Assembly (NCBI GenBank): GCA_003278705.1
Contig: QCDR01000001.1
Location: 1 to 64,000 of the forward strand
Direction: 5' to 3'
Length of the DNA: 64,000 nucleotides
Source: Prochlorococcus sp. AG-355-J23
GTDB taxonomy: Bacteria > Cyanobacteriota > Cyanobacteriia > PCC-6307 > Cyanobiaceae
Under the pieces are notes generated by a model. It ran no database searches, was not told the origin of the DNA, and saw only the letters and a program-made list of their open reading frames with translations. Of this stretch, positions 8,682-46,587 are shown piece by piece; position 1 is the stretch's first letter; each line of letters starts with the position of its first letter. Both the position numbers and the translations under genes were made by a program.

Positions 8682-9415
8682 TTATCAGCGAATTGATCAA
8701 TTGCTTCTTTATAAATTTCAGATGATAATTTTCTTACTTTCGAGCTTAAGAGCATAGAACCTAGCGTTAACTTTGTAGACTCGTTAAATTCACTATCAAA
8801 TCTATATTCTAATCTCAAAATAGCAAACCATTTTTCAATTGCAAATGGCTTAAATAGTTGTTTTGGAGATGCATTTCTAAGTCTTGAGGAGATATCAGGA
8901 TGTGGAACAGAAAGATCACATGGTCCTATAATACCTTGAGTTTTAGATTCAGGTCCCTCACTATATTTTACAGATGCATCACCAAATTCTATTTCATTGG
9001 ATTCTATAGAGTAATAAATATGATGCGCCAAATCTTCATCAGATACTCTTATAAGACTGTATAAAACCCTATCTAATCTATCTTTGTATCTCAAAAACAA
9101 GGCTTCCCCATTTCCTTCTAATAATTTATCAATGATACATCTTCTTTTATATCTAAATTGGGCATATTCCGAAAGAGTTAATGCATCCGTTGCTAATAAA
9201 TTAATCCTTTGCCATTTAATTAAATCTTTTCTGTCTTTTATTTTTAATTCAATCATTAAACCCTTAATAGCTTTTTCATCTGAAATTTTAATATTTTGGT
9301 CCTCAAATTTAAATTCATTTACGAACCTTATTTCTCCTTGAAGTCTTGCTAATGGTTCAATAAGATTTCCCATTGCTAATAATCGCATTAATGAATTTTC
9401 TAAAGCTTTATTCAT
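8678..9415 (-). CDS. Parvulin-like peptidyl-prolyl isomerase of the secretion operon
   Basis: 245 aa. The middle and C-terminal part follows the parvulin/PpiC pattern: RVLYSLIRVSDEDLAHHIYYSI, then FGDASVKYSEGPESKTQG-IIGPCDLSVPHPDI, then LFKPFAIEKWFAILRLEYRF. No signal peptide is seen, so it probably acts in the cytoplasm, possibly keeping giant substrates soluble or presenting them to the exporter. It sits between the 4174-aa protein (23 bp gap) and the ABC exporter (4-bp overlap). Similar PPIases occur in other cyanobacterial type I secretion loci. The catalytic match is partial, so it may act as a chaperone only. Confidence 0.75.
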   Translation of the reverse strand: MNKALENSLMRLLAMGNLIEPLARLQGEIRFVNEFKFEDQNIKISDEKAIKGLMIELKIKDRKDLIKWQRINLLATDALTLSEYAQFRYKRRCIIDKLLEGNGEALFLRYKDRLDRVLYSLIRVSDEDLAHHIYYSIESNEIEFGDASVKYSEGPESKTQGIIGPCDLSVPHPDISSRLRNASPKQLFKPFAIEKWFAILRLEYRFDSEFNESTKLTLGSMLLSSKVRKLSSEIYKEAIDQFADK

Positions 9416-18400: not shown

Positions 18401-21400
18401 TCACTATAAGCATTAAAAAAAGAATTCAATTTTGTTAGAGAGTATGGATTATTACTATTTATCTCAGAATTATTAAAGTTAAATTTTGGAATACTTGGTA
18501 CAGCATCTATAAAAAAACCTTTTTCGATTATTTGACTTTGAGTTCTAAGATTCGTTTCTCCAAGCCTACTTTGCATCAAAATTGAAAATTCAAAATCGCC
18601 TTTAGCATAAGGATTTAAAGTAGATACATTTAAATCATTTATTAATTTCTGAATATCTTCGAATGTTCCTGAAAATAACCAATCACCATAATCTAAATTG
18701 TCAGAATTTTTTTCAATTAAATTACCAGAAGAATCTTTAAATATTATCTGCCCCCCCTGAATACTGGAATCTTTTACATATAAGCTGAATGATTCACCAC
18801 TTACTGGATCATGATTAAAATCAAAGAATTCAGAGAATCCTATATTATCTCCCTCATCAAGATTTATTTCATTTGTTTTTGCAAAAACTTGTGGTTCTTT
18901 TATTGATCTTTCTAAATTGAAAAACAATTCAATACTATTTTCTAGACCATAATTATCCTTTACAATAAGGTTAGTTTGATATGAAACAACTCCATTTGTA
19001 CTATCTAATCCCAAGTCAGTTGTATTTCCTGTAATTCTTAAATTAGATTGATTAAATTGAAATAAATTTGTATAACTATCACTTAATATATCGGATTCTA
19101 AATCTTCTATTCTATAAGTTAAATTTTCATCAGGATCAGTCCCAACATCAATATCTTTTAACAAATCAAAAGGTAAATCAATTAAAAAGTCGGATTGTTC
19201 ATTTAAGCTAAAGGTTATCCTATTAAGAAAATTATCATCATTATTAATAGTTTCAGGAATAATTGAATTTACCCCACTAGTTAAAAAATTATTAATTAGA
19301 TTTTGAGAATTTTTATAATTAAGAACAGGATTATTGTTTTTATATTTTACGATGATAGGAATAGTTGCAGAGGCTTCAAGTCCTTGACTATCTTTCGCAT
19401 TTATAACTACATAATTAGTTCCAATTTTCTCGCCTATTGGCCTTATTTTCAATAAATTTTCTTTGCTATCAAAAATCAACCAATTTGATGTTTCGTTGTT
19501 GATTTCTTTAAGAACCCCACTTCCATCATCCTCAAATAAACTTAAAGTAATTTTCTCATTAGGATCTATTCCTAAGTCATAATCATTAAACCAAGAATTA
19601 ACATTAAAGTTAGCTTCTTCATCAAAAGAGATTGTAATGGGATTCTCAAAATTTGGTATTTTTTCTGTTAGAAAAGGGCTATCATTTATATTCAAAACAT
19701 TTAATTGGACATCTTGATCAATAAATAAGCTTTCTTTATCAGAAGCTCTAACAGTAAATTGGTTAATGCCAACTAAAGTATGATCAGAGCTAATAAGTAT
19801 ATTGCCAGTATCCCTATTAATTGAAATAAAGCGCAGTAAGTCTTTATTGCCACCTTTTGAATAAACTTCGAAAGTTAATTTTTCATTTTGATCTATTATT
19901 GTATCCTTATCAAAAAATGAGTTAGATGTTAAGGGATAATTAAAACTCTCACCTTGAGTTATTTCAGGTAAATTTATACTTGAAATTATTTCAGGAGCAT
20001 CATTAATATTTAAAACATTAATTAAAATTTTTTGCTCACTTGAATCGTTTTCACCATCAGAAGCTGAAACTATAATTTCATTTATTCCAACATGGGTATT
20101 TGATGGAGTTCCATAAATTAAACTACCCTCTTTTTGTATCCACTCAGGAAAATCTTTTAAAGTAAAAGTTAAATTTTCATCATCTTCATCAGAGAATAAT
20201 AATGAGAGATCTTGCGAAAAAGTTTGGTCTTGAAAAAGTGTCTGCTCTAAAGGATTAGAAGATGAAGAGTCAAAGTTAACTGGTATAGGGGCATCATTTA
20301 TTGATTCAACATTTAAAATAAAATTCTTATTATTAATATCATCATCTGAAGTAATCTTTACTATATGAGAACCAACATCATCTTGAAGTGGAACTCCTTC
20401 AACTACAAGTGCTTTGGGACTATTTGAATTGATCATTATTACTTTTTCTAATAATACTTTTCTAGCTTTTGATGCAGGTAAGCTTTTTAAAGTTAAATTT
20501 ATATCAGGTGTTATTTCTGAAGATTTAAAGCGGAATGGTAATCGAGCGAATTGAACATCTGCTTCCTGAGATTGCATATTTCCCAGAATTATTCCTTGAG
20601 AAGCCACTGGTAATGATCCACCAGATAAACCTCTTAAAATAGTTCTAGAAGAATCACCATTTTGCTCTAAAGAACCGAGATTCTGGAAAATTGGAAATCT
20701 ATCATTGCCAAACACATTTTCATTTTCTAATAGGCTTTCGTCTAAATAAATAGAATCATTAGACCAATCTAAATTCAATTCCGCTCCTAAGAATCCTTGT
20801 CCATGAGGCCTATAATCGTAAGCATTAATTTCTAACCAATTTAGATTACTGTCTTCAGTATCTGGAACTAGTTCATATTTGATAACTGGTTGTCCTTGAT
20901 TTACAATTTCTGGAAGCGGATCTACTAATTTAACTTGTAACCAATCTAATTTATTTGCATTCTCAAGCACGGGATTAAAATGTCCTAATTGAACTGAATC
21001 GATGTCTTTCGGCAAAAAATTATTAGAATCATAATTTTCAATTAAAAAGCTCTTTTTTTCATCCTCTTTGAAATAATTAAGATTGAAATCATAAAAAACA
21101 TCTGCATTTCTATCATCTTTTATTTTGTTTCCAGAAGAATCCAATGGCCGCCATTGAAATTTATCTAAATTAATGAAATTACAAAAATCGTTTGGAATAT
21201 TCTCAGCTGTATAAACAACAATGTCGTCCCCTGAAATAAAATCATAAATATTATCTTTATTATTAAAACCAATATTTACAATGTCATCATTTGGAGTTAG
21301 ACGAAGTAATTCAATATCTTCAATAATGTCAATATTATCAAAATCGATTTTAGATAAAATATCATTTTTGTTAACAATTAATGAATCTAAATTTAATTCC

Positions 21401-22017: not shown

Positions 22018-23922
22018 TTAAAGAGTTAAAGTTTCGTAATCTGATCCACTTAAACTAGAACCAACACTACTATAAGCAGCCTTATCAGCAAATCCATCAG
22101 AATAAGATGTATTTTCGTAGGTAAAGTCTTCAGTACCTTCAAAAATATCAGCGACCCAAGTACCTGAAGCATCGAAACCAACCGATGATCCAGAGAAATC
22201 TTCAAGTTCTGAGAGGGCATCATTAATAAATGAACCAGATGAGTCATTTAATGTAATCCAACCATTTGAGGTTTCAAAGTCATCAAATGATGCAAAATTT
22301 CCACTAAAGTCTGATGAAGAAGCATCATATATGGTCTCACCCCAATCATTAGAAAGGACTTCTAAGTCATCGATAGTTATAGACCCGTCAAAGTTTGCAT
22401 CAACATCTGCAAAATTACCAGAACTATCTTCTGCGACTTCTCCAGCATTTAGGAAAGCTAAGTCTGTTAATGAAACTCTTCCATCATAGTTAAGGTCACC
22501 CTGATAAGTAATAAGGTTCTCAGTCACTTGATCAGCATAACCAGTAACATCGGAGGATTGTTCACCAGTAAGCTGGAAAATACCGCTTGCATCGCTAAAA
22601 CTATGAACAGAACCTGCGCTCACTCCTGATGAATCTAGTGATAGACGAGTTATTAATTTAGCACCATCCATTGTGCTGGCATCCAACATACCTCCACTCA
22701 TATCAGAATTCATTACACTTAGTCCATCAATCTCATATGCGCTACCAGAACCATCTTTTGAGATATAAGAACCACTTGGATCATAAGCGGATACATCCCA
22801 TCCAGAGTTTAAAACTGATCCTGAAAAATCACTTATAAAACCTCCGGAGAAATCATTTGCTACAATTTTCAAAACAGATCCAGAAACATCAGAAATGCTA
22901 ATGTCATCAAGTTGCTCAGCAAATGTACCGGCATTAATCCAGTAAGATTCTGCAACAATCGCTTGGTTTCCGCTGGAATCAACGTTGTAAGAATTTGCTC
23001 TTATTAAGTTAGTTTTATCTGATGAACCAATGTATCTTTGTGTATAAATATTAGTTGCTACGTTTACGAGATTTGACTCAGCCTCATGAATTGTAACTGC
23101 ACTAAAACGATCTCCCTCATAGAAACCTTGAGAGTTAACACCTGAAATGTCGTTAGTAAAATCTAATTCATCTAAGCTTTTAATAAGTGTGCTACTCGAA
23201 GATCCAGAGGCATCCTCTTCAGTTCCAATTCTTGAAAAAGTAGTATCGTATAGATCAGTATCATCAGTGAACTGAATTGTGGCTAAATCTGTTCCAGAAA
23301 TATCGGTATTTAATGAGACATCTTTTAAAGTAAATAATAAATGACCTCCAGAGGTAGAAGTAGAACCTGTGCTGAGATCGGACGAAGTATATGGGGTTGA
23401 GGAGTAAAAATCTGTTGCATTAAGGGTACTTTGTGAATTAATTGGAGTGAATGACCCACCTGAAGTATCCTCGAAAAGTGATGCACCAACAGCACCAGTG
23501 AATCTTATTGAACTACCACTTATATCGGCTGACCGTGCAAAATTAAATGCTGATCCTGAGAAATCTGCAGTTGCCCCGCTGAAATCTAACAAATCAGTAG
23601 TTGATGAATTACCGGTAGTGAAGAGAACGTCTAAAGTTTCCAGATCAATTGCAGCTTTTGCGAAATCAGAGCTGTCATAGGCCCAACCTGCTTCAACATA
23701 AAAAGCTATATCATAAGTAGCTGCTCCACCAACATCTAAATCATTATCAAAATTAATAGTATTTGATTCGCTATCACTAATATCTGTACCTAATAAACCA
23801 CTTATTGGACCATTTCCACTAAAGTCACCTGAAGCATGAGTTATCTCATATCTGTATTGGAGAGCTGAACCAGAAAAATCAAAATCTAATGATGAAAAAT
23901 CTGTAAAAACCGATGATGACAT
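22018..23922 (-). CDS. Dockerin-bearing surface protein rich in D-x-S-G motifs (634 aa)
   Basis: Residues ~15-430 form a region shared with three other large proteins here. Markers are LQYRYEI, LETLDVLF, IRFTGAVG, IYTQRYIGSSDKTNLIR and a cohesin-like ETLDVxF strand pattern. Residues 476-527 are a type-I-dockerin-like pair of Ca loops (DLNYDGRVSLTD and DANFDGSITIDD). The last ~30 residues (YENTSYSDG...SDYETLTL) closely match the end of the 1538-aa protein and may be the type I secretion signal. The protein has no Cys and no N-terminal signal peptide. It is studded with short D-[FSAI]-S-G repeats. It lies 54 bp upstream of the giant gene on the same strand. It lacks any variable N-terminal binding module, so it may be the minimal member. 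Confidence 0.8.
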   Translation of the reverse strand: MSSSVFTDFSSLDFDFSGSALQYRYEITHASGDFSGNGPISGLLGTDISDSESNTINFDNDLDVGGAATYDIAFYVEAGWAYDSSDFAKAAIDLETLDVLFTTGNSSTTDLLDFSGATADFSGSAFNFARSADISGSSIRFTGAVGASLFEDTSGGSFTPINSQSTLNATDFYSSTPYTSSDLSTGSTSTSGGHLLFTLKDVSLNTDISGTDLATIQFTDDTDLYDTTFSRIGTEEDASGSSSSTLIKSLDELDFTNDISGVNSQGFYEGDRFSAVTIHEAESNLVNVATNIYTQRYIGSSDKTNLIRANSYNVDSSGNQAIVAESYWINAGTFAEQLDDISISDVSGSVLKIVANDFSGGFISDFSGSVLNSGWDVSAYDPSGSYISKDGSGSAYEIDGLSVMNSDMSGGMLDASTMDGAKLITRLSLDSSGVSAGSVHSFSDASGIFQLTGEQSSDVTGYADQVTENLITYQGDLNYDGRVSLTDLAFLNAGEVAEDSSGNFADVDANFDGSITIDDLEVLSNDWGETIYDASSSDFSGNFASFDDFETSNGWITLNDSSGSFINDALSELEDFSGSSVGFDASGTWVADIFEGTEDFTYENTSYSDGFADKAAYSSVGSSLSGSDYETLTL

Positions 23923-24272: not shown

Positions 24273-27272
24273 TTAATTCGTGAAATCTGTTATTGGGACA
24301 CTATTGAGAACTCCACTATCCTCCAGAAGTTGTTGTCTTAGGAAACTTGTATTATCGAAACTTATAAGTGTATGAGAATTATCAATCGATCCTACATCTA
24401 GATGAGCTATCTCTGAGTCAGGGATTTGAGGAATTCCCCATTCCAAAGAATCCCAATTTAAGTAATTTCCTGATAAATCCTCATTATGGTTTAAACCTGT
24501 ATGAAGGTTTTTCATAAAATCACTTTCTATTATCGCAATATCTGCTATGGAAATTTCACCATCAAAATTTGCATCGACATCATCAGATGCGATAAAAGAA
24601 TTATTATCTGCATGGATTTTTGCCGCATTAAGATAAGCAAGATCTACTAAAGATACCCTACCGTCGTAATTTAAATCACCCTGAAAAGTAATTATATTTT
24701 TTGATAGCCTTTCTGAATTGTTTGAAATTTTTAAATTATCTTTAAAATCATTTCCACTCATTGCATAAAAACTTTCTTGACTTATGCTCTCTCCCTCTTC
24801 CCCAGAAACTCTAACTTTTAAATCAATATAAAATGATTCGGAAGTTGAATCATCCCATGAACTTGCCTTACCATCTGCTGATATCCCATTAACGCTAAAT
24901 CCTTTGACAGTATTTTCTCCTACCGAAGTGAGATTGGAAGCATTTGAGAAGCTAACTAACGATAAATTATTGTTGAATTCATTGTGAAGTTGCAATCCAG
25001 CATAATTATTATTTAACCCCTCAGAGAAATTAGAGAGTGTAAGTTTATTAGTGATCAATGAATTATCAGAATTTAGATATTCATTAGAAGAAGATGCTAA
25101 AAAGTCATCCATAGTACCGATTTCCAAAGACCCACTATCAAAAAAATTATTACCACTCAAATCCTCACTCAAGGAAAACCATGAGTATCTTTGCTCCAGA
25201 GATAAATCATGTAAGACAATATCGTCTAATTCAGTTTCAAAATTACCAATATTTGACCACCATGATCTCCCTTGAATTGTCGCTCCATTTCTTACTAAAA
25301 AAGATTTTGTTCCGGATCCAATTTCTCTTTGAGTCCAGAGTGTGGTTCCATGTTCAATAAGATCTGCAAAAGTTTGGTAAGTATATATTTCGCTAGATCT
25401 ATCAATTTCAATTGAATTATTGGAACTATCAAATCCCAAATCATCCAATGATTTTATAAGCGCATTATCGAAAGAGCTGTCATTATCAGTATCCTGATAA
25501 TTTGAAACCACAGTATCACAGTCATTGGAAATAATATCTATGGCTAGAGTCTCTCCATCCTGTGTTGTACCTCTCTCAATATTTTCGTCAAAATATAGTC
25601 CACTAACTCTGAATAATTCTGCATAATCATTGTTTATTCTTTGAGATCCTATAAGCTCACTTCCTACGGCACCAGTTACTCTGACTCCTTCTTTTTCATA
25701 TGAATATTCACCATTAAAAAATGATTGATCAAGTTTTGAAAAAGATTTAGCAAAATTAATATTTGATCCAAAATTTAAATCTGCGGTATCCCAATTCGAA
25801 AAAATTCCGTTAACTAAATTAAGAGTAATATCAAATGTTTCTAGATTCCAGATATTGGCTGTATCAACAGTTTTTGCCTCTATAACTAAATCGTAGCTTT
25901 TATTTTTGTATTCCTCATCAAAAGTAGTATTTTCTCCTGAATCATCTAATGTCCACAAATTGACTCCCTTTACTTTGATGTCTGTTCCAGACTCAACAAG
26001 TTTATAGTGATAACGAATTAAGGCTGTTTCATTGCTCAAAGAAATCTCATTTATGGGGTATATTTTAGAGGTAAGATCATAAAAATTTACTTCTCCATAA
26101 TTGTTTTCGCCACCATGTATTGAACTTATGGCTATGGTTTCAGAATCTGAAGAAAAACTCAATGCCGAACCAAAGTTCTCGTTTGATTTTGCTCCTAAAA
26201 GATCAAAACCTGATTGTCTCCAGATATCATTTTGCTCATCAAAATTAAATATACGTACCTGCCCTACATCATTTCCTGAAGCATCATGTTTAATTGAGCC
26301 TATACCAACAGTATTACCATCTTCGGATAAATCGATCTTATAAGAACTTAAGTCTCCAATATTAGTCCCATCAATATCACTTCCGAGTTTTGTCCATTTA
26401 TTATCACTTTCTGAATATTTAAAAACTCTTACATGTCCGGAATTATTTTTATCTTCTCCATCATTCTTTATAGCCCCTATTGCAATAATTGAACCGTCAA
26501 CAATATCATCAGGAGATACGAGCCTTAATGTAGTACCTGCCTCATCAGAAAGAGCTTCGCCTAAAATATCATCCCCAATTTTTTGCCAGTTTTCATTGTT
26601 TAATTTATAAACAGAAACTAACCCATTTTTATTATCCAATCCTTTTTCAGGAGAACCGATAGCTAGTAAATTTCCATTTAATGAAAGATCAACAGAATAT
26701 CCAAGTTTTGAATTATGAGATGTACCAATTATGTTCTGACCAATTTGTACCCAGTCATTTGAAGCAGAATCAAATTGATAAGAATGAGTTGATCCAACCT
26801 TAGAGCCAGAAAAATCATAGTCTGGATCACCGATTGCAATAATCGAACCATTTTCTGCAAGGCTTATAGAACTACCAAAAGATTTATTATTTATTCCTCC
26901 ATTTATAGCCGAACCTTTAAGGTTCCAAGTTTCGTCAGAATATTCATAAATACTTACAGCCCCCGAATAATCTTGGTCACCCGGAGAACCTATCGCTAAT
27001 AAATTTCCATCATTCGAAAAGCTAATAGAGAATCCAAGATTATCATTAGCACCTTGACCAATAAATTCTGCGTTTAAATTATATGTACTTAAGGAATTTG
27101 AAGATGAATCATATACAGCTACATACCCAGCATTAGTAAGATCATTAGTATCGTAATCAGGATCACTTATAGCTACTCTGCTTTTATTATTTGACAGCAC
27201 AATATCCCACCCAAATTTACCATTTTCGGATGAGCCACCTATATTAGATTTTTTCTCCCAAAAAGATCCCAA
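24273..27272 (-). CDS. Beta-propeller (FG-GAP-like) plus dockerin surface protein (999 aa)
   Basis: Residues ~1-395 are seven repeats of the type GxSISFSNDGNLLAIGSPGD...GAVSIYEY, an integrin-alpha/FG-GAP-like propeller. Each blade has a D-x-x-G-type calcium loop and a VxVYxL strand. Residues ~400-830 are the shared region (RYHYKLVESG, NLETFDITLNL, VRVTGAVG, LWTQREIGSG). Residues 866-920 are the dockerin-like loops (DLNYDGRVSLVD, DANFDGEISIAD). The C-terminal tail differs from the 634- and 1538-aa proteins. There is one Cys and no signal peptide. Likely extracellular, with the propeller as a protein- or glycan-binding head. Transcribed toward the exporter operon. Confidence 0.8.
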   Translation of the reverse strand: MGSFWEKKSNIGGSSENGKFGWDIVLSNNKSRVAISDPDYDTNDLTNAGYVAVYDSSSNSLSTYNLNAEFIGQGANDNLGFSISFSNDGNLLAIGSPGDQDYSGAVSIYEYSDETWNLKGSAINGGINNKSFGSSISLAENGSIIAIGDPDYDFSGSKVGSTHSYQFDSASNDWVQIGQNIIGTSHNSKLGYSVDLSLNGNLLAIGSPEKGLDNKNGLVSVYKLNNENWQKIGDDILGEALSDEAGTTLRLVSPDDIVDGSIIAIGAIKNDGEDKNNSGHVRVFKYSESDNKWTKLGSDIDGTNIGDLSSYKIDLSEDGNTVGIGSIKHDASGNDVGQVRIFNFDEQNDIWRQSGFDLLGAKSNENFGSALSFSSDSETIAISSIHGGENNYGEVNFYDLTSKIYPINEISLSNETALIRYHYKLVESGTDIKVKGVNLWTLDDSGENTTFDEEYKNKSYDLVIEAKTVDTANIWNLETFDITLNLVNGIFSNWDTADLNFGSNINFAKSFSKLDQSFFNGEYSYEKEGVRVTGAVGSELIGSQRINNDYAELFRVSGLYFDENIERGTTQDGETLAIDIISNDCDTVVSNYQDTDNDSSFDNALIKSLDDLGFDSSNNSIEIDRSSEIYTYQTFADLIEHGTTLWTQREIGSGTKSFLVRNGATIQGRSWWSNIGNFETELDDIVLHDLSLEQRYSWFSLSEDLSGNNFFDSGSLEIGTMDDFLASSSNEYLNSDNSLITNKLTLSNFSEGLNNNYAGLQLHNEFNNNLSLVSFSNASNLTSVGENTVKGFSVNGISADGKASSWDDSTSESFYIDLKVRVSGEEGESISQESFYAMSGNDFKDNLKISNNSERLSKNIITFQGDLNYDGRVSLVDLAYLNAAKIHADNNSFIASDDVDANFDGEISIADIAIIESDFMKNLHTGLNHNEDLSGNYLNWDSLEWGIPQIPDSEIAHLDVGSIDNSHTLISFDNTSFLRQQLLEDSGVLNSVPITDFTN

Positions 27273-32091: not shown

Positions 32092-32099
32092 CTCTAAAC

Positions 32100-34741: not shown

Positions 34742-37700
34742 TTAGGTTGGATCATATCCAATTATCGGGCTAGAATTTACGCCAAAGTCTTTAGTATCAT
34801 CTGCAAATAGATTACTTCCTGTATATAAATTACCTTCGCCACTATAGATATCGCCAGCCAACGGATCTCCCTGCAGGCTATCTACAGTACTTTGATGATC
34901 ATAGGCACTATTTTTAAAGTCGACTTCCGTATCGGAAATATTATTTATCTCATCATTATCCCAGTAGTTTAGTGAGATCCAGCTCTTAGATTCCCATTCA
35001 CTATTTGTTGTAAGAGAATCGGAATGAATGGTTCCACCCCAGTCCCTATCTAAAATCGCCAAATCTGAGGTTGTTATCTCGCCGTCATAATTTGCATCCA
35101 CATCTGAGAAGTTACCAGAGTTATCTTCTGCTACCTCTCCAGCATTTAAGAATGCCAAATCTTTCATTGAAACACGACCATCATAGTTAAGATCACCCTG
35201 GAAAGTAATTATGTTGTTGGTCAACTTGGCACTTTTTGATTCATAGCCATCTGTATCTTTTCCTTCCAATGTATAGAAATCTGTTTCTAAGTCATTAAGA
35301 CGTTGCCCAACTTTTCCATCGACCTGCACCTTAAAGCTCAGTTCTAAATTTTCACTACCAGATCCATCCCAGGAAGATTTATTGGCATTACCACTTGCAT
35401 CAAATCCTGTTGATAAATCAACAGATCCTCCTTCAATCAGATCAGATCCAGATAGATCTGTCACTCTATCAATTGCATAAGAACTAACAGAATCATATTT
35501 ACCGTTCTCGCCAACAGTTAACTCCATTAATTTAAAGTTTGTCGTGTCGGCAGCAGTTAGATTAAGATCTTCTGCCTTAACTCCATAATTTCCTCTGTTT
35601 GCCCACCATCCCTTTGCATCTACAGTGGAACCATCTCTGATCAAATAAGTCTTGTCACTGCTACCTATATATCTCTGGGTATATAAAGTCGTTCCCTGCT
35701 CATCTAAATCTGCGTAGGCATTATGGATATATGTCTTGTAAGTGGTGTCATCAACAGAACTTCCATTATTTAGATCTGTATATCCCAATCCTGAAAGTGA
35801 TTTAATATAAGCATTATCTTCGACCGTATCATCATCAGTACTCTGATAATTGGCAACAACAGTATCGTAAATATTGGTTTCAATATCTACATCAATAAAT
35901 TGATTACCACCTTCAACAAAAGCTTTTGCGCCGCTGGCATCAAACCTTAATCCTGTGAGAGTGAATAATTCTTTATAGTCACCCTGAATTCCAGTCTCTC
36001 CATTTACTTTAGACAATGTTGCACCTGTAATTCTTACAGAATCGGCACTTAAATTATCTATTGTATAGTCATAGGATTTTGCATTATTTACCTCGTCTCC
36101 AAAACTTACTGATGCCCCTGATGCATCCCAATTACTAAATAAATCATAGTTAAAGTCTAATGTGACATCGAAGGACTCCAGATCCCAAGTAACATTAGTT
36201 CCGTTAATATCTCCATTGGTTAATGTCTTGGCTTCTACGATCAAGTCATAAGAAATATCCCCATAGGCAGAGTTCGTATTACTATCGTTGCTATAAGCAA
36301 TGACTCCACCAAGATCCGCATCACTTCCTGATTTCTGCAATCTATACTGATATTCAATCAATGACTGATTTGTATCAACTGCAATTTCTGCCAGGCTTAC
36401 AGTATCTAGGCTGTTGCTGGATGCTATATCTGTATATTCAAAACCTCCATCATCTGTGTAACTGACAAGTGCTCTTAATTTTTTATCAACATCAGCTGTT
36501 GTGATTGTATAGTCTGCATCTGTGGCAACTGTTGTCCAGTTAGCCCCTCCATCTCCACTTAACTGCCAATCGTAACTGTAACTTCCATCTAAAACATTTC
36601 CTGAGTTATCTGCATCAACTGCTGTTTCTGTAAGGTTATATCCAACTGTCATTGTCTCACCGACCTTGGCAGTTCCTCTTATTTCAAAAGTAGAATTCCC
36701 TTCATCAAGATTATTAATAGATAAAGTTACATCCTTAGTTGTTATATTATTTACTTCATCTGTCGCAGCAACAGTAAAGCTGTAACTTGACTTGGTTTCA
36801 TAATTCGGACTGTCATTAATAGTAATATCACCTGTTGCGGAATCTATACTAAATAATCCGGCATCAGTTCCACTGATCGCAAAGCTATCTGCCTTTACTC
36901 CAGTTCCACTGCCGTCATCTGCTGTAACTGTATAAATTGTGCTGCCACCTGCAATATTTTCGTCTATTGCAGCTGTTCCTAATGAGGTTATTGCTGGACC
37001 GGTTGAATCATATATCCAAGTGAACGTACTTGATACATCATTAGTATTTCCAGCTTGATCAGTAAATGCTCCACCTGCTATCGATATTGTTTTTGTTCCG
37101 TCACTATCTGGAGTAAAGATTACAGAATAACTATCAGCAGTACCGCTAAAACCACTTAGGGTAGTTATATCACCACCAGTTAAGGAAATATCATTAATAT
37201 CAAAATCAGTCGTTGCTTCACTGAAGCTAAAACTTACATTTATCGATGCGTCATTGCTGCTAAATCCACTAGTTCCTTCACTAACACTGATTGAATCTAC
37301 TGTTGGTTTTATTGAATCATATATCCAAGTGAACGTACTTGATACATCATTAGTATTTCCAGCTTGATCAGTAAATGCTCCACCTGCTATCGATATTGTT
37401 TTTGTTCCGTCACTATCTGGAGTAAAGATTACAGAATAACTATCAGCAGTACCGCTAAAACCACTTAGGGTAGTTATATCACCACCAGTTAAGGAAATAT
37501 CATTAATATCAAAATCAGTCGTTGCTTCACTGAAGCTAAAACTTACATTTATCGATGCGTCATTGCTGCTAAATCCACTAGTTCCTTCACTAACACTTAT
37601 TGAATCTACTGCTGGATTTAAGGTATCAATGGTTATTGCAAAGTCTTTTGTTTCGGATGGTACATCTGTTATTGGATCAAAAGCCTTAACTTTTAATGTA

Positions 37701-40700
37701 TGATCTCCATCAGTAACATTATTACCGGAATAATCACTATCACTGATTGACCATGTATCTGATCCTGCGGTTGTTGTAGCTAGTAATGTTGTTCCATCCT
37801 CTGCATACACATTAATGATACTGCCAGAAACATCGGTTGTTCCCGAGAAATTTGGAGTGGAATCATTAAAAATAGGACTCCCTAATCCATCAATTGTTGG
37901 TGTGCCTGGAGCTGGTGAATCAATAAATATGACAGGGTCACGGATTAAACCATCTTCATCATCAAGATCAAAGAAACCACCGTCAATCAAGAAGGCACTG
38001 ACCATTTCAATATCACCGTCGCCATCTTTATCAATTAAATAGGCAGAACCGTCAATATAAGGGGTATGGTTTGTTGCTGTAATTCCTGCATCTACAAATG
38101 CCTGTAATATGTTGCCATCATTTTTTACAGTTATATTTGTAAAATCTCCCTTACCTCTCTCTATTCCATCTGGTAAAGTTCCGTAATAACTAAGGCTGTA
38201 ATCAAGATTATCCAACCAGGAATCAAAGTCTGCCTCTTCTCCTGTATAAGTAACGATCTTGGAGTTATAAAGGAATGAATTTCCATCTTTATTAGTTTTA
38301 ATTATCCGGTTTATATCTTGGTCGGCCTCTTCCAGTGTCATATTCACAACTGCTGTTCCATTTGCAATCGTGTCAACAGAGAAATCCAATTCTCCTATCG
38401 GTGTATCGATTATTGAAGACTCATCAACGTTTAGGATTTCCTTTATCTGCTCCTTACGTTCATCTGTCAGATCTGTAATTGTTGATTCAACTATTAAGAC
38501 GTCATCCTTTTGTGATGTATCAAGAATTACCATATTGTCGGTGGCACTATCATCTGAAGCGGCAACTACAGCTGTCCCTGTATCTAACTTGTCAATTAAA
38601 TAATTTTCATTATTTTTTTCAATCTTAAATCTATTAAAGATGTCTACTGCAGCGTTTTGATATTTATGTGTAAAGTTATGATTACGATGCCAATTATTAC
38701 CGCTACGGAATCTATTAGCTGCACTGAAAATATTTTTAATATTTAACTTTGCTCCATCTCCATCAATACCATCATTCAAAAGGTTTATTGCCTTTTGCCT
38801 ATCTGATAATTCGCTTTCTGGCTTGATAAAAACTCTTAAAGCTTTGGTTTTTCTTGTTAAATTGTTTCCACTTGACCTTCTCGCAATAAATCTTCTAGAT
38901 CCTTTTCTAAGGCTAACAGAATTCCCATAATCATCTAGATGATTGTTGAAACGCAAGAATCCATTGTGCTTTCTAAAGTTATATCTATATCTCTTTGGTA
39001 TTTTTATATCCCAGTCGCTTGTATCAGATTCATCTTCTTTGGCAATACTTTTAATATTAAAAATATCAGAATTTCTCAGAGAATTATCAGAGGAGAAATC
39101 TGATACTCTAATTAATTTTTCTGCTTTATCCTCGCTGGTTTCAAAGTCAGGAGCATCACTATCAATTATGAATGATTTGGTTGTTGGGTTAGATACGTTG
39201 CCTGCACTATCTTCTGATTCAACCTTAATTTGATGGGTTCCATTTGAAAGAGAATCTGTAGTATATTGCCAATTTCCTGATCCATTTGCTGTTGTGCTGC
39301 CTAATTCTGTAATTCCACCATATAAAGTCACTTTACTATTCGCTTCTGCAGTTCCTACAAATGTAGGAGTTGTATCGTTAGTTTTATTATCTGATTTAGA
39401 TCCTGAATTACTGCTACTAGCTAAGTTGAAAATTGGTGGATTTGGTGGAATTTCATCTATATCTAAAATTCTTACTTCAAAATTTTGAGTATCTGTTAAC
39501 GATCCGTCACTTGCTCTAATTGTAGTTGAGTAAAAAGATTTAGATTCAAAATCAGGACTTTGTTTGAATTTTATTATCCCTCCGCTGCTACTAATATCAA
39601 AACTGGAGGCATCTCCTCCTTGTAGTGAATAGGTTATGGAATCTCCATCCCCATCAGAAGCATTTACATCATAAACAACATCAAATTTAGAGCGGTTTTC
39701 ATTCCACAAAACAGATTTAGAGAAACCACTATTTGATGTAATTATGGGATTGTTATCATTTAGGTTATTAAGCCTAAAAGTGAGGGATTGAGTATCCTGT
39801 CTCCCGCTACCATCTCTCGCATATACAGTTGTTGAATATGATGTTGGACCAGTATCAAAATCCTTCGGTGCTTTAAAATAAACTTTACCGTTACTACTAT
39901 TAATTGAGAAATCTGAAGTATTACTCAAAGAATAGGTAACAGTATTAAAATTTGAACTCCTGTCAGAATCAGTAGCGTTTACATCATAAATTACGTTATT
40001 AGTCGAGTAATTTTCATCAAAATAACGAGTAACAGAACGTCCCGAATCAGAGGTGATTATTGGGGAATTATCATTTAAATCATTAAGCCTAAAAGTAAGG
40101 GATTGAGTATCCTGTCTCCCGCTACCATCTCTCGCATATACAGTTGTTGAATATGATGTTGGACCAGTATCAAAATCTTTCGCTGATTTAAAATAAACTT
40201 TACCGTTACTACTATTAATTGAGAAATCTGAAGTATTACTCAAAGAATAGGTAACAGTATTAAAGTTTGAACTCCTGTCAGAATCAGTAGCGTTTACATC
40301 ATATATTACATTGTTAGGCGAGTAATTTTCATCAAAATAACGAGTAATAGAATTCCCTGAATCAGATGTAATTATTGGGGAATTATCGTTTATATCATTG
40401 AGCTTAAAAGTAAGGTATTGACTGTCCTGTCTCCCGCCACTATCTCTCGCATATACAGTTGTTGAATATGTTGTGGGACCAGTATCAAAATCTTTCGCTG
40501 ATTTGAAATAAACTCTACCGTCTTTACTATTAATGGTGAAATCTGAATTATTACTTAAAGAATAGGTAACCTGATTATGGGGATAATTATCTCTATCACT
40601 AGCATTCACATCTAAAATGACAGTGCTAGGACTTGTATTCTCGTTAATATTTTGAGTAACTGAATTACCACCATTATTTGTTATGACAGGGGAATGGTCA

Positions 40701-41038
40701 TTTGTATTCTCATTTATATCGTTTAAATAAACAGATACACCTTTAGTATGAGTACTAGTTCGCCAACGTCCTCCAGAGAAAGAAGAATACGAATAATATT
40801 GCCCTCTTTGATTAATAGTTATGCTATAGGAAGATTTGGTCTCATAATCAGGATTAGAGTTGAATGATAGATAACCACTAGAACTAATATTGAAATAATG
40901 ACTATCACTACCACTTAACCAATAACTGAAATTTCTAGTACTACCTGAAGAACTAGGGTTATAATCACCTAATCCTTTTGAGCTATTTTCATTAATCCTG
41001 AAAGAACTGCTCCCACTTATTCCAGAAATACTGCCCAT
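34742..41038 (-). CDS. Cadherin-repeat and dockerin surface protein (2098 aa)
   Basis: Order of parts: about five cadherin-like repeats (~1-530) with DINDN/DLNDN junctions, YDVNATDSDR and YSTTVYARDGSG. Then Ig-like modules (~535-640), and the module shared with the 4174- and 1538-aa proteins (~700-1070, ending IDGSAYLIDKDGDGDIEM ... LIRDP). Next come Ig-like domains including a near-identical tandem pair, then the shared cohesin-like region (~1500-1900: YQYRLQKSG, DLESFDVTLDF, TLYTQRYIGSSDKTYLIR). Last are dockerin-like loops (1949-2002). I see no Cys and no signal peptide. The C-terminal tail differs from the 634- and 1538-aa proteins. Probable calcium-dependent, type I-exported adhesin. Confidence 0.85.
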   Translation of the reverse strand: MGSISGISGSSSFRINENSSKGLGDYNPSSSGSTRNFSYWLSGSDSHYFNISSSGYLSFNSNPDYETKSSYSITINQRGQYYSYSSFSGGRWRTSTHTKGVSVYLNDINENTNDHSPVITNNGGNSVTQNINENTSPSTVILDVNASDRDNYPHNQVTYSLSNNSDFTINSKDGRVYFKSAKDFDTGPTTYSTTVYARDSGGRQDSQYLTFKLNDINDNSPIITSDSGNSITRYFDENYSPNNVIYDVNATDSDRSSNFNTVTYSLSNTSDFSINSSNGKVYFKSAKDFDTGPTSYSTTVYARDGSGRQDTQSLTFRLNDLNDNSPIITSDSGRSVTRYFDENYSTNNVIYDVNATDSDRSSNFNTVTYSLSNTSDFSINSSNGKVYFKAPKDFDTGPTSYSTTVYARDGSGRQDTQSLTFRLNNLNDNNPIITSNSGFSKSVLWNENRSKFDVVYDVNASDGDGDSITYSLQGGDASSFDISSSGGIIKFKQSPDFESKSFYSTTIRASDGSLTDTQNFEVRILDIDEIPPNPPIFNLASSSNSGSKSDNKTNDTTPTFVGTAEANSKVTLYGGITELGSTTANGSGNWQYTTDSLSNGTHQIKVESEDSAGNVSNPTTKSFIIDSDAPDFETSEDKAEKLIRVSDFSSDNSLRNSDIFNIKSIAKEDESDTSDWDIKIPKRYRYNFRKHNGFLRFNNHLDDYGNSVSLRKGSRRFIARRSSGNNLTRKTKALRVFIKPESELSDRQKAINLLNDGIDGDGAKLNIKNIFSAANRFRSGNNWHRNHNFTHKYQNAAVDIFNRFKIEKNNENYLIDKLDTGTAVVAASDDSATDNMVILDTSQKDDVLIVESTITDLTDERKEQIKEILNVDESSIIDTPIGELDFSVDTIANGTAVVNMTLEEADQDINRIIKTNKDGNSFLYNSKIVTYTGEEADFDSWLDNLDYSLSYYGTLPDGIERGKGDFTNITVKNDGNILQAFVDAGITATNHTPYIDGSAYLIDKDGDGDIEMVSAFLIDGGFFDLDDEDGLIRDPVIFIDSPAPGTPTIDGLGSPIFNDSTPNFSGTTDVSGSIINVYAEDGTTLLATTTAGSDTWSISDSDYSGNNVTDGDHTLKVKAFDPITDVPSETKDFAITIDTLNPAVDSISVSEGTSGFSSNDASINVSFSFSEATTDFDINDISLTGGDITTLSGFSGTADSYSVIFTPDSDGTKTISIAGGAFTDQAGNTNDVSSTFTWIYDSIKPTVDSISVSEGTSGFSSNDASINVSFSFSEATTDFDINDISLTGGDITTLSGFSGTADSYSVIFTPDSDGTKTISIAGGAFTDQAGNTNDVSSTFTWIYDSTGPAITSLGTAAIDENIAGGSTIYTVTADDGSGTGVKADSFAISGTDAGLFSIDSATGDITINDSPNYETKSSYSFTVAATDEVNNITTKDVTLSINNLDEGNSTFEIRGTAKVGETMTVGYNLTETAVDADNSGNVLDGSYSYDWQLSGDGGANWTTVATDADYTITTADVDKKLRALVSYTDDGGFEYTDIASSNSLDTVSLAEIAVDTNQSLIEYQYRLQKSGSDADLGGVIAYSNDSNTNSAYGDISYDLIVEAKTLTNGDINGTNVTWDLESFDVTLDFNYDLFSNWDASGASVSFGDEVNNAKSYDYTIDNLSADSVRITGATLSKVNGETGIQGDYKELFTLTGLRFDASGAKAFVEGGNQFIDVDIETNIYDTVVANYQSTDDDTVEDNAYIKSLSGLGYTDLNNGSSVDDTTYKTYIHNAYADLDEQGTTLYTQRYIGSSDKTYLIRDGSTVDAKGWWANRGNYGVKAEDLNLTAADTTNFKLMELTVGENGKYDSVSSYAIDRVTDLSGSDLIEGGSVDLSTGFDASGNANKSSWDGSGSENLELSFKVQVDGKVGQRLNDLETDFYTLEGKDTDGYESKSAKLTNNIITFQGDLNYDGRVSMKDLAFLNAGEVAEDNSGNFSDVDANYDGEITTSDLAILDRDWGGTIHSDSLTTNSEWESKSWISLNYWDNDEINNISDTEVDFKNSAYDHQSTVDSLQGDPLAGDIYSGEGNLYTGSNLFADDTKDFGVNSSPIIGYDPT
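37003..37620 (-). repeat. 309-bp near-identical tandem duplication
   Basis: Two adjacent 309-bp units (37003-37311 and 37312-37620) encode the same 103-residue Ig-like domain (SISVSEGTSGFSSNDASI... to SSTFTWIYDS). They differ at only a few bases by eye, including near the distal end. The copies are recent or being homogenised. Confidence 0.93.
39771..40715 (-). repeat. Three 315-bp cadherin repeat units
   Basis: Units beginning at 39771, 40086 and 40401 each encode 105 residues (FRLNDLNDNSPIITSDSG... to YARDGSGRQDTQSLT). The first two are almost identical in DNA and the third is more diverged. A fourth, more distant unit precedes them in the DNA. Confidence 0.9.
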
Positions 41039-41970: not shown

Positions 41971-44900
41971 CTAAAGAGAAAGCGTATCGTAAGGAGAATC
42001 GCCTAATCCTGTTCCTACACTATTAAATGATTCATATACTGATTTAGCGTTTGTATAAGATGAATTTTCATAATCCAGCTGCAGATCTGTATCACTAAAG
42101 ATATCTGCATCAGCCAAGGTGGCACCGGATGCATCACTTACAGTTACACCTGATAAATCTTCAAGAGTATTGATTTCTGTTGTTATTCCCGAGGCATCTA
42201 ATGTTGTCCAACTTGTACCTGAGAAATCAGCATTACTAGAACCGGAATAATCTAAAGTTTGTCCCCAGTCAGCAGAAAGAACAGCCAGATCGGCAACATC
42301 AATATCACCATCAAAGTCAGCATCCACATCAGAGAAGTTTCCACTGGCATCTTCTGCAACTTCTCCTGCATTTAAAAATGCCAGATCACTTAAAGAGACT
42401 CTTCCGTCATAGTTAAGATCACCCTGGAAAGTAATCAGGTTAGTTGATAATTTATCGGCAAAGCCGGAAGTGCTGCTGGATTGCTGTCCAGTTAACTGGA
42501 ATACCTGAGAGCTGGCAGAATAATCTGTTCCAGCTTCAACTCCAGAAGCATCAAAACTTACTTTGGTCCATAATTTCGCACCTTCTATGGTGCTTGCATC
42601 AAGGCTGCTGCCGGAGATGTCTGACTGAGAAACATCAAGACCTTCTAGATTTGTTAATGTGGCACCGTTTTTATTTAAGGAAAGATCCCAGCCATCAAAA
42701 GATGTTGCTCCACCGGAAATATCGAGAGTTGTATCGATCACACTGAATGCAGATCCAGAAGCATCAGATATGACTATATTTGCCAGATCTTCTGAGAATG
42801 TTCCGGTATTTACCCAGAATGATTCAGAGATCAGTGCTGTATTCGCATTGCTTACAACATCATTTGCTCTGATCAGATTACTCTTGTCACTGGATCCTAT
42901 ATAACGTTGGGTATATATATTTGTAGCCAGGTTCGTGAGGTTAGATTGCGCTTCATGGACTGAGACATCATTATATTTATCGACAATATCAAAACCCTGC
43001 GTTGTAGATGATCCCGTCAGCTCCGAGATACTCTTAATGGCTGCAGTCTGTGCTCCTCCTCTTCTAGATAGAACAGTGTCATAGATATTTGTATTATCTG
43101 TAAATGTAATTTTATCTAGATATTCTCCGACCGATTCATCAATGGTTACGCCTTTTAGTTCAAATAAGCTGTGATAATTTCCGTCATTGGTAACACCGGA
43201 TGCATCTTTTAACTCGTCAGTTACAGCACCTGTAAATCTGATTCCAGAAGCATCAATTGCTCCAGAAATAGCAGTATTAAATGCACTGCCGGAAGAATCA
43301 AATGTTGCGCCGGAGAAATCATTAAAGAATGTGGATCCAGAACCGTCGGCAAGATCAAAGGTTACATCCAATGTTTCTAGATTAATAGTGGCACCACTGC
43401 CGGCGTTGGAATCTTCTACCTTTGCATAGAATTTAATGTTGTACTCAGCAGCACCACCGGTACTTGTATCACTGTCAAATGCTATTCCTGAGGCATCGGT
43501 GTCGTTGTAGTCATAACCAAGCAGACCACTTATTTTTTCTGTTGGATCAGCCGCATTGTAGATTTCGTATTTATAACTTAGAGCTGTATTTGTATAGTTA
43601 AAATCACCGGTTGTATCGATTGTGATGTCAAATGTTTGGGCTGTTGATTCTCCTCCATCATCACTGGCTGTGATTTTTAATGAATGAGTTCCATCAGTAA
43701 GAGTATTGCCGGAATAATCAAGATCACTGATTGACCAGGTATTGTCTGACCCTGATGTTGTTGATGCTAATAATGTGATGCCATCTTCTGCATAGACATT
43801 GATGGTATTACCGGAATTATCTGTTGTACCAGTGAGGTTCGGGGTTTCATCACTGACGACTGCTGCGCCATCAACTACTGGGGCATTCGGGATTGGAGAT
43901 ACAATCGGGATGATCGGGTCACGGATTAATCCCACCTGATCATCTGTATCAAAGAAACCCTGGTCAAGTAAGAAGGCACTGACCATTTCAATATCACCGT
44001 CGCCGTCTTTATCAATTAAATAGGCAGAACCGTCAATTATGCTGTAGTGCCTGTAAGGCACGCCGGAACTATCTAACTGAGGTACCTTCGCTGCTCTTAG
44101 AAGTGCATCGATATCAGAAGTCTTACCTGCAGTTAGGTTTAGAGTTAATGGATTGTTTGGATCCTGACCTACCGGCTGGTCATAATAGCTAATTGAATAT
44201 TGCAGTCCATCAACAAAGGCATCAAAATCAGCTCCATGCTTATTTGGATCATATGTAATTATTGTTGAGTTAAATACAAAAGATTCATCCTGATTATTGG
44301 TTTTAATAATCCGGTTTATATTCTGATCAGCTTCTTCCAGCTGCAATTTAACAATCGCAGAACCGTTGGCTAACGTATCAACGGAGAAATCTAATTCATT
44401 TATCGGAGTTTCTATTGTTACGTCGTCTGCAATCGTCAGTCCTTCTGCTTCTAGGGCTTGTTTAATCTGAGCTTGTCTTGTTGCATCGACTTCATTGATC
44501 TCTGAGTCAACAATTATTGAATCACTTGTAGAAGATGAATCAATAATGACCATATTATTATTTGTATTTGCTGCAATTTTTGCTGAGCCCTGCTTAAATT
44601 TGTCTAAGAAATTATCTTCTTGTGTGGCATCAAGTTTGAATTTATTAAAGATATTATCGACAGCAGAATTGACATTATCAATTTCATTCCAGTTTTGACT
44701 GCTATTTGTACGATTCCAGGTTCTTGTCTTACTGAGGTTCCAGGAATTTAATTTATTTATTGCCTGGTCCTGATAACTCAATCCCTCTTCACTGTCAGGT
44801 TTGATTTTAAATTTGAGCGCCTGTTTAACTGTATTATCTTCTGATTTCGCAAAAACTCGGAAAACACCCTTCTTTAGATCAGCTTGTGATTTTCCTTCTA

Positions 44901-46587
44901 GGAAAGAAATCCATCCAAAATCAGCTGCAGTTTTATCATCTTGATATTGAATAATAGAACGTAATTTCTTGGGAATACGGACAGACCCCCAGGTTGTATC
45001 GCCAAATCCTGAGACATCATGAATGTCAAATAGGTGCCTGTTAGTGATGCCAGTTGTCGAGGTATCTTCAGCTTTAAGTGTTTTAGCTTTGGTTTCTGTT
45101 GTGTTCTCTGGGTTGATGACAAATTCATTTTCCAGTACATCATTAATCCCTAAAGTTACAGTTTGCTCTGTAGTTAGAGTTCCATCACTTGCTAAGACTG
45201 TAAATTGTAATCCGCTTCCATCTACTTCATAATCTGGACTTGAAGCCAAAGAGACATTTCCATTTTCATCTATAAAAAACTTATCATCATCAAACTCATC
45301 TTTTAATGACCAGGTTATTGCAGATTCATCTGTACCTGTTGCTGTATAAATAACTGTAGATGAGGCGGTGTTTTCATTAATAGCACTCACTGTTGATGAT
45401 GAGGTTATCGAGGGGGGTTGGTTGTTGGCTTCAATAGTTAAGTAAAATGTTTCTGATGGATCTGATGCTGTAATATTTGTCTGATTATTGTAATCATCGT
45501 AACCCTGATCAGTAACTGTTAATTCATAATCCCCTGGAGCTAATTCGCTTGAAGTTATGCTCCAACGTCCATGATTATCCTGAGCTCTTTCAGAACCAAG
45601 CAATTCATTTCCATTCCATAAATTGACAACAGCTCTGCCTGCTGCATAACCTCTTAAAGTAGGTGTACCATCTTTAGTGGTAAAACGATTTGAAGCTGTA
45701 TTAACTGATTCTGTTTGGTCTGCGCCTAGTGAATCAACAATATCAATAATATCTGGTGCATATGCTTTGGTTGAAGTAAGTTTAATTTCCGCAATTCCAT
45801 ACTTTGTATGGGAACCGTGGGCATCATCCCATTTTCCATTTTTGTTAGCCCAATATAATCCAAAATCTTGCCCAGTACTATGATCATCAGGCTGACCAGT
45901 ATCCCATTTTGTAAAAGTGGATTGAGAACCGTTAACCCAATTCCATACACCTTCCCTATGATGATCGTTATATCCAATCCAGTAATCCCGAGAGGGGTCA
46001 ATATTTTTAATTATTTCATCATGTTCTTCTTGTGAATCTACAGATACTAGATGCCCTCCTAAAGCTCTTGCAGCAGTTTCAGCGTTATACCAATTAGAAG
46101 AAGATAAAATCTGATATCTAGTATTGTCCCAAGTAAAAGATTCGCCTGGTTGATCAGCCTTATTAGTAACTATCTCTATAACTGCAGATGTGGAATGAGT
46201 ATATCTATGGTCATTCCATAGAAAACTACTACCTCTAGTAAAGTGAGCGACATGTTCGCCACCTGAGTCATTAGGTTCCCTTGAATTCCACTTGTCATAA
46301 TTAACAGTTGATCCATCCATCCAACGCCAACCAGCCTTTCCACCTTCATAGGCTCCAGAAACATTATTAGGGTCATCTGTTAAACCTATCCAACTATCGT
46401 AATATTTTCTACTGTTTAGCTGACCAGTAACATAATTATATTCAGAAAGATCATTAAGACTAACTAAATACCCTCCATGTTGAGCAGCTCTATTTTGGTG
46501 CGTTTGCCAAACTTGCCTTCTACTGTCATAGTAGTAAGTCGAATTATCTCTAGTACCAATTTGTATCCAATTACTATCTACGGACAT
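41971..46587 (-). CDS. Double C-type-lectin and dockerin surface protein (1538 aa)
   Basis: Residues ~5-140 and ~148-270 are two C-type-lectin-like domains without Cys. The first has a mannose-type EPN (104-106) with WND (124-126). The second has a galactose-type QPD (232-234) with WDD (253-255). Then come Ig/cadherin-like modules, the module shared with the 4174- and 2098-aa proteins (~500-900), another Ig-like domain, the cohesin-like region (YKYEIYNAAD, LETLDVTFDL, IYTQRYIGSSDKSNLIR) and dockerin-like loops (1390-1441). The tail YENSSYTNA...SPYDTLSL matches the 634-aa protein. It is D-x-S-G-rich toward the C-terminus. Likely an exported sugar-binding surface protein. The 3' half of the gene looks richer in G+C than its surroundings. 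Confidence 0.87.
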   Translation of the reverse strand: MSVDSNWIQIGTRDNSTYYYDSRRQVWQTHQNRAAQHGGYLVSLNDLSEYNYVTGQLNSRKYYDSWIGLTDDPNNVSGAYEGGKAGWRWMDGSTVNYDKWNSREPNDSGGEHVAHFTRGSSFLWNDHRYTHSTSAVIEIVTNKADQPGESFTWDNTRYQILSSSNWYNAETAARALGGHLVSVDSQEEHDEIIKNIDPSRDYWIGYNDHHREGVWNWVNGSQSTFTKWDTGQPDDHSTGQDFGLYWANKNGKWDDAHGSHTKYGIAEIKLTSTKAYAPDIIDIVDSLGADQTESVNTASNRFTTKDGTPTLRGYAAGRAVVNLWNGNELLGSERAQDNHGRWSITSSELAPGDYELTVTDQGYDDYNNQTNITASDPSETFYLTIEANNQPPSITSSSTVSAINENTASSTVIYTATGTDESAITWSLKDEFDDDKFFIDENGNVSLASSPDYEVDGSGLQFTVLASDGTLTTEQTVTLGINDVLENEFVINPENTTETKAKTLKAEDTSTTGITNRHLFDIHDVSGFGDTTWGSVRIPKKLRSIIQYQDDKTAADFGWISFLEGKSQADLKKGVFRVFAKSEDNTVKQALKFKIKPDSEEGLSYQDQAINKLNSWNLSKTRTWNRTNSSQNWNEIDNVNSAVDNIFNKFKLDATQEDNFLDKFKQGSAKIAANTNNNMVIIDSSSTSDSIIVDSEINEVDATRQAQIKQALEAEGLTIADDVTIETPINELDFSVDTLANGSAIVKLQLEEADQNINRIIKTNNQDESFVFNSTIITYDPNKHGADFDAFVDGLQYSISYYDQPVGQDPNNPLTLNLTAGKTSDIDALLRAAKVPQLDSSGVPYRHYSIIDGSAYLIDKDGDGDIEMVSAFLLDQGFFDTDDQVGLIRDPIIPIVSPIPNAPVVDGAAVVSDETPNLTGTTDNSGNTINVYAEDGITLLASTTSGSDNTWSISDLDYSGNTLTDGTHSLKITASDDGGESTAQTFDITIDTTGDFNYTNTALSYKYEIYNAADPTEKISGLLGYDYNDTDASGIAFDSDTSTGGAAEYNIKFYAKVEDSNAGSGATINLETLDVTFDLADGSGSTFFNDFSGATFDSSGSAFNTAISGAIDASGIRFTGAVTDELKDASGVTNDGNYHSLFELKGVTIDESVGEYLDKITFTDNTNIYDTVLSRRGGAQTAAIKSISELTGSSTTQGFDIVDKYNDVSVHEAQSNLTNLATNIYTQRYIGSSDKSNLIRANDVVSNANTALISESFWVNTGTFSEDLANIVISDASGSAFSVIDTTLDISGGATSFDGWDLSLNKNGATLTNLEGLDVSQSDISGSSLDASTIEGAKLWTKVSFDASGVEAGTDYSASSQVFQLTGQQSSSTSGFADKLSTNLITFQGDLNYDGRVSLSDLAFLNAGEVAEDASGNFSDVDADFDGDIDVADLAVLSADWGQTLDYSGSSNADFSGTSWTTLDASGITTEINTLEDLSGVTVSDASGATLADADIFSDTDLQLDYENSSYTNAKSVYESFNSVGTGLGDSPYDTLSL

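Follow-up and report, generated by a model that had tools for sequence, protein, structure and literature searches.

Two cysteine-free C-type lectin domains on a large Prochlorococcus protein, and a paired residue exchange in the ligand site of the second

The sugar of a C-type lectin is commonly predicted from its sequence by the EPN/QPD rule, which takes EPN as mannose-type and QPD as galactose-type. The open reading frame (ORF) considered here, which carries one domain with each motif, lies at 41971..46587 on the minus strand of a 64,000-nucleotide window (the whole stretch of DNA analysed, positions 1 to 64,000 of contig QCDR01000001.1) from Prochlorococcus sp. AG-355-J23, and encodes a lectin-headed protein of 1538 residues. 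An earlier note on this DNA described its two C-type lectin-like domains (CTLDs) as bearing opposite sugar codes. The main interest of the protein lies rather in the inverted ligand set of the second domain and in the recurrent, coupled swap at positions 193 and 205 that stands behind it.

Rat mannose-binding protein A (MBP-A; 1msb, 2msb), whose numbering is used throughout for positions 185, 187, 189, 193, 205 and 206, holds calcium and sugar through E185, N187, E193, N205 and D206 (PMC8235521). A check of its letters gives EPN-DHGSG-E...WND. The galactose carbohydrate-recognition domains (CRDs) of ASGR1 and MGL (1dv8, 6py1) share the CTLD fold and carry QPD; ASGR1 reads QPD-DWYGHGLGGG-E...WND, with only the 185/187 pair exchanged relative to MBP-A. 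A galactose-binding mutant of MBP-A retains Glu193 and Asn205 and has a Trp (PMC8235521), tryptophan is required by galactose-selective C-type lectins (PMC8092209), and its replacement by His leads to higher mannose affinity (PMC8235521, PMC8092209).

Polyandrocarpa TC14 (1byf, 1tlg), a dimeric animal lectin with disulfide cysteines, is a listed exception to the EPN rule (PMC8235521). TC14 proteins are calcium-dependent and bind galactose (PMC3293724), and their letters are EPS at 86-88, Q94 and D107-D108, which align with the class having Gln at 193 and Asp at 205 (Q-D). The calcium ligands are given as Glu106, Asn109, Asp127 and Asp128 in precursor numbers (PMC3293724), so that both Asp residues bind calcium. 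In Lepidoptera, the tandem CRDs of immulectins, which are disulfide-bonded insect immune proteins, can pair EPN with QPD, as in IML-2, IML-10 and IML-13; of 12 insect immulectin QPD CRDs, only 5 retain Glu at the 193 position, and no Q-D pair is described in the part of the source used (PMC8235521). In the bivalve lectins MyCLF and TgCTL-1, WDD accompanies EPN or QPN (PMC12842671); together with the insect QPD CRDs, these cases mean that variation at the 193/205 positions is already known. Giant picocyanobacterial surface proteins, such as LY254_05360, are likewise very large and probably exported, and combine cadherin-like domains with a C-type lectin-like domain, CLECT_VCBS (cd03603; PMC9387257). 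What sets the window protein apart from them is its pair of N-terminal CTLDs, borne on a core and a tail that also occur in proteins without lectin domains.

Fold and ligand sites of the two domains

The product of the lectin ORF is assigned to a single Pfam family, Lectin_C, the only one above its cut-off of 22.6 bits. The score is 71 bits for the whole protein, 37.9 bits for CTLD 1 (residues 6-142; 46162..46572, minus strand) and 56 bits for CTLD 2 (residues 150-270; 45778..46140, minus strand). A longer N-terminus is impossible, because the open frame extends to only 1541 residues, three of them upstream of the start. Modelled alone with AlphaFold2, domain 1 (residues 1-146, 51 alignment rows) reaches a mean predicted local distance difference test (pLDDT) score of 91.1, weaker at 71-90 and 141-146, and its Foldseek matches are CTLDs. 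Domain 2 (residues 146-275, 54 rows) reaches 95.2; its model matches the mannose receptor structure 5xtw with Z 21.1 and a root-mean-square deviation of 1.3 over 118 residues (VIA-align) and resembles many other CTLDs (VIA-align, Foldseek). In these models both domains have the CTLD fold. The models are calcium-free, and the ligand sites were assigned by alignment alone.

EPN occupies residues 104-106 and WND residues 124-126 of the protein, and QPD and WDD occupy residues 232-234 and 253-255. All four motifs stand in the expected alignment columns of the family, and chance motifs are ruled out, since they lie in the right columns of a confidently modelled fold. The account of two Cys-free lectin domains on this strand, EPN with WND in the first and QPD with WDD in the second, is thus borne out by the Lectin_C matches, the confident models and the absence of any Cys. 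Two conserved disulfides are usual in animal CTLDs, and with no Cys they are impossible in this protein. The 20 other listed ORFs of the window have 86 Cys in 6084 residues; at that rate a run of 1538 residues with no Cys has a chance of about 3e-10, and one of 275 residues, at about 0.02, is unremarkable. Among 143 sampled Cyanobiaceae domains, both window domains counted, 129 have no Cys, and Cys-freeness is the norm among sampled bacterial CTLDs.

CTLD 1 has a ligand stretch (46210..46278, minus strand) consisting of E104, N106, E111, N125 and D126, identical in all five letters to MBP-A 185, 187, 193, 205 and 206. It probably binds mannose-, glucose- or fucose-type sugars through one calcium, in agreement with the mannose-type reading of its EPN. 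CTLD 2 presents an inverted set (45823..45894, minus strand), namely Q232, D234, Q240, D254 and D255, in which the first four letters exchange acid and amide relative to E185, N187, E193 and N205 of MBP-A. The Gln in place of Glu193 and the Asp in place of Asn205 had no part in the first account. QPD lies in a cis-Pro context and is followed by a loop, DHSTG, of the same length as the DHGSG of MBP-A and resembling it, with His236 rather than Trp in the 189 slot. Apart from QPD itself, the sequence of CTLD 2 thus has none of the features of a galactose-type site: Glu193 and Asn205 are not kept, and both the Trp and the longer Gly-rich loop of ASGR1 are missing. ASGR1 and the galactose mutant of MBP-A keep Glu and Asn at 193/205 and have Trp. 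To speak of opposite sugar codes is to over-read a three-letter motif.

It is still conceivable, though doubtful, that CTLD 1 is mannose-type and CTLD 2 galactose-type, one protein reading two opposite sugar classes. Both motifs are present, animal lectins give the rule good support (PMC4681411, PMC7618208), QPD recurs in 14 of the 143 Cyanobiaceae domains, and no short motif predicts the sugar in every case. The replaced residues and the His-bearing loop of CTLD 2 speak against such a division, as does TC14, which with its Q-D pair binds galactose despite EPS and in which the motif alone is therefore not decisive.

Neither Cys-freeness nor the EPN/QPD pairing is new. The 143 domains, drawn from the loci of a Lectin_C profile search and a homologue search, include 34 with EPN and 14 with EPS, and EPN or EPS is joined with QPD in 4 of 32 multi-domain Cyanobiaceae fragments (clipped loci, the window counted). 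The pairing is thus not unique, and insect immulectins do likewise. Loci came from the best 30 matches per search, and no more than about two candidates in each genome were scored in the homologue search, whose matches per genome are therefore partial. Lectin_C was found at E <= 0.001 in 60 of 400 Cyanobiaceae genomes (own genome counted) and, at the thresholds used, in 26 of 292 genomes of the wider phylum, 35 of 246 of a planctomycete phylum and, in the phylum to which a Saprospiraceae genome belongs, 6 of 247. A profile search of the source genome, a 1.45 Mb draft that is 84.8% complete, gave no other Lectin_C match at E <= 1. One protein of Prochlorococcus AG-914-N13 (locus L160) has at least six CTLDs with nearly all different motif sets, including QPD/Q/WDD and YDD/Q/WDD. 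Viral relatives were also considered: one of eight possible scans gave 22 pattern matches, none of which was confirmed as a relative.

Paired variation at positions 193 and 205

The states at positions 193 and 205 were counted as E-N, E-D, Q-N and Q-D, in that order, after removal of rows more than 70% identical. The Cyanobiaceae set gave 31, 5, 0 and 16 among 121 domains (p 2e-9), a set from named genomes 48, 0, 3 and 11 among 94 domains (p 7e-10), and Pfam-picked loci from cyanobacteria, planctomycetes and Bacteroidota 34, 0, 2 and 4 among 68 domains (p 1.6e-4), where the planctomycete part holds one Q-D domain and the Bacteroidota part two Q-N and zero Q-D. These Fisher p-values take no account of kinship between sequences and are descriptive only. 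The named-genome set was drawn with a Q-D-rich query as the best 80 of 295 relatives, and six of its 11 Q-D domains fall on loci of the Cyanobiaceae set (L143, L158, L160 twice, L206, L218). Excluded from the Pfam-picked set were four loci that had been used before (L238, L239, L243, L244); among its planctomycete and Bacteroidota loci are two genomes that the named set also contains (L256 with L165; L280/L285 with L205).

The combined set of 253 non-redundant domains contains 103 E-N, 5 E-D, 3 Q-N and 23 Q-D. When the 6441 column pairs of the combined alignment are ordered by corrected mutual information, 193-205 takes rank 7 (z 7.0) and the known EPN/QPD pair, 185-187, rank 18. Where the Pro is kept and the first letter is E or Q, the combined set holds 74 EPx/E-N, 18 QPx/E-N, 8 QPx/Q-D, 6 EPx/Q-D, 2 QPx/Q-N and 1 QPx/E-D. 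A tree of 134 of the 253 rows, built without the 193 and 205 columns, requires at least 18 changes at position 193, 21 at position 205 and 23 in the pair state, which implies that many of the changes are joint. By these sequence counts, the 193/205 swap is a recurrent one among bacterial CTLDs, with its two positions coupled. No description of it was found in the open-access literature searched, most of those searches having been aimed at other points.

CTLD 2 is likewise likely to bind calcium and a vicinal diol, through a Q-D site with the acid at 205 and the amide at 193. Because the site has this form, QPD need not imply galactose. By symmetry, four acid/amide exchanges on an MBP-A-like loop would lead back to a mannose-type site, only with the roles of donor and acceptor reversed, and the sugar classes bound by the two heads may then overlap rather than be opposite. 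A swap of one pair would give the acids a mirror-like arrangement suited to the cis 3,4-diol of galactose, and a swap of neither or of both a two-fold arrangement suited to the trans diol of mannose, glucose or fucose. This argument from two-fold and mirror symmetry, which goes beyond the reversal of donors and acceptors, combines general background with what we infer. It leads to a tentative proposal, held with well under even confidence, that in bacterial CTLDs 185/187 and 193/205 act as two switches, the second a coupled pair of its own, a single swap giving a galactose-type site and none or both a mannose-type site, and that CTLD 2 and its class are mispredicted by the QPD rule.

TC14 and the ordinary QPD lectins fit this two-switch scheme: TC14 shares Gln at 193 and Asp at 205 with CTLD 2 and has EPS where CTLD 2 has QPD, and CTLD 2 is doubly swapped. 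At the 189 slot, Phe or Tyr stands in 7 of 14 sampled bacterial QPD/E-N domains, 2 of 6 QPD/Q-D domains and 9 of 74 domains with EPN or EPS and E-N, and Trp in none of the first two groups and 2 of the 74. Small as the numbers are, the Phe/Tyr counts fit a stacking residue in the single-swap class. If the scheme is true, it gives a reason for the galactose binding of TC14 despite EPS, and the three-letter rule could give way to one that reads four positions. If the coupled 193/205 pair does co-decide specificity, many bacterial and some invertebrate sugar assignments need revision.

Several observations count against the scheme. The calcium ligands given for TC14 in the part of the source used (PMC3293724) do not include Gln at 193, and the amide may therefore be no mirror partner. 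The tree offers three supported independent pairs for the 193/205 swap, mostly concordant and too few to reach significance; a parallel test of QPD versus Q193 has two supported pairs. The nearest homologue, L143, has SPA in place of QPD and keeps Q...WDD, and given this replacement CTLD 2 may be drifting. Sugars are, furthermore, often unpredictable from short motifs (PMC12842671).

The SPA of L143 is also one of the grounds for supposing that calcium or sugar binding has disappeared from CTLD 2, which would then act as a spacer or protein binder, its motif letters being relics or drift. In addition, 50 of the 143 Cyanobiaceae domains have neither Glu nor Gln at 193 (gaps counted), calcium-independent CTLDs are common, and 2zib, an antifreeze protein that is independent of calcium, is a close fold match of CTLD 2. 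Such a loss appears unlikely: all five ligand positions keep oxygen-bearing side chains in a cis-Pro context, the coupling of Gln and Asp across genomes is unexplained by drift, and TC14 binds calcium with D-D.

The island and probable type I export

The most likely explanation of the lectin ORF, held at about even confidence, is a surface adhesin exported by type I secretion, with a head of two Cys-free CTLDs, a long core, a shared tail and a Q-D site in CTLD 2. The two CTLDs would form the exposed N-terminal head, the core (residues 385-994; 43606..45435, minus strand), which shares 81% identity with that of a protein in genome G472 (contig C7), would form the stalk, and the C-terminal module (residues 1364-1538; 41974..42498, minus strand) is common to three other window proteins. 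Sequence or model shows the CTLDs and their ligand residues, the lack of Cys and of a Sec-like start, the common tail and a gene order that recurs with the secretion genes in one other genome; the route of export, anchoring at the surface and the binding of calcium and sugars are the inferred parts of this proposal.

Type I export is likely from the genes of the island. All on the minus strand, an HlyD-type membrane fusion protein (4345..5727) and an ABC transporter (5730..8681), both type I secretion components, are followed consecutively by a rotamase-like protein (8678..9415; Pfam match below cut-off) and a giant protein of 4174 residues (9439..21963), part of which is related to the lectin core. 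No Sec-like hydrophobic N-terminus was seen in the lectin ORF by hydropathy, the only method applied to this point. The earlier suggestion that the lack of Cys suits type I export stands in part: the N-terminus and the type I genes agree with it, but Cys-freeness itself is weak evidence and no special sign of this route, because 129 of the 143 sampled CTLDs lack Cys as well. The five large island proteins have 6 Cys in 9443 residues. The N-terminal domain of the ABC transporter is of the C39 type and scores above its Pfam cut-off.

Among 20 same-genus genomes tested (own counted), close HlyD relatives (57-60% identity) occur only in G472 and G473, both of which carry the tail; weaker relatives (24-31%) occur in 11, and 6, including G443, have none at E <= 1e-10. 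On contig C13 of G472 the window order is repeated, with HlyD, ABC transporter, rotamase-like protein, giant, homologues of the 24273-27272 ORF and of a trypsin-like protein, and a lectin-headed protein, in a reading that left out 20-30 kb of the contig. Two findings fit export by this transporter less well: the lectin ORF contains no GGxGxD of RTX repeats, and G443 (58% complete) and G477 have the tail without a close HlyD. RTX nonapeptide repeats are common, and not universal, in type I substrates. The literature search found no paper on cyanobacterial CTLDs with type I secretion.

The other tail-bearing proteins of the island, also on the minus strand, comprise one of 634 residues (22018..23922), which is 46% identical to lectin residues 995-1538, one of 999 residues with a TTG start in the ORF list (24273..27272), and a Cys-free neighbour of 2098 residues with cadherin and Big repeats and a related core and tail (34742..41038). 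A trypsin-like protein with TPR repeats (27373-28635) lies among them, has a 40% homologue in the same order on contig C13 of G472, and may process exported proteins. Between the large surface proteins, at 29494-32953, are genes for a fucosyltransferase (GT10), an FkbM methyltransferase, a GT2 glycosyltransferase and a sulfotransferase, and the island may therefore modify its own surface glycans. The G+C content of the window is 30.45%.

Apparent recombination of heads, cores and tails

The tail, defined as lectin residues 1364-1538, was found in 5 of 265 same-genus genomes (own counted), and the lectin ORF lies in a rare export island. Sequence comparison indicates that heads, cores and tails have different histories. 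The lectin core (aligned residues 383-992) is 78% identical to that of an 1818-residue protein on contig C7 of G472, and the tails of these two proteins share only about 30%. The tail of the 1818-residue protein is 77% identical to that of the cadherin-bearing window neighbour; between the core of this neighbour and the lectin core, identity falls to 44%. The N-terminal part of the 1818-residue protein matches this neighbour (45%) and not the CTLDs in the sequence comparison. A second protein on contig C13 of G472, of 1702 residues, has the same core, and its N-terminal stretch matches domain 2 at 31% (BLAST only).

Such histories are expected if recognition heads recombine on common stalks, and heads and stalks in the export island look recombined. 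G472 encodes several proteins with the same core and tail and different heads (1702, 1658 and 1818 residues; L139-L141 on contigs C7 and C13), a variety that is a sign of head exchange between paralogues. The lectin head is probably one among several interchangeable heads that serve to recognize cells or surfaces. For picocyanobacteria this would mean a definite recognition head with a measurable ligand, carried on a stalk that appears to be exchangeable. Head variation by another mechanism, with the lectin head as the variable region of a diversity-generating retroelement, is highly improbable: CTLD-like folds are known targets of such elements, but no reverse transcriptase family PF00078 was found at E <= 0.01 in the 84.8% complete genome, where a template repeat was not sought. 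Next to the lectin ORF, at 41283-41873, lies an ORF of 196 residues with no Pfam match, a 73% homologue of which stands beside the 1818-residue protein in G472.

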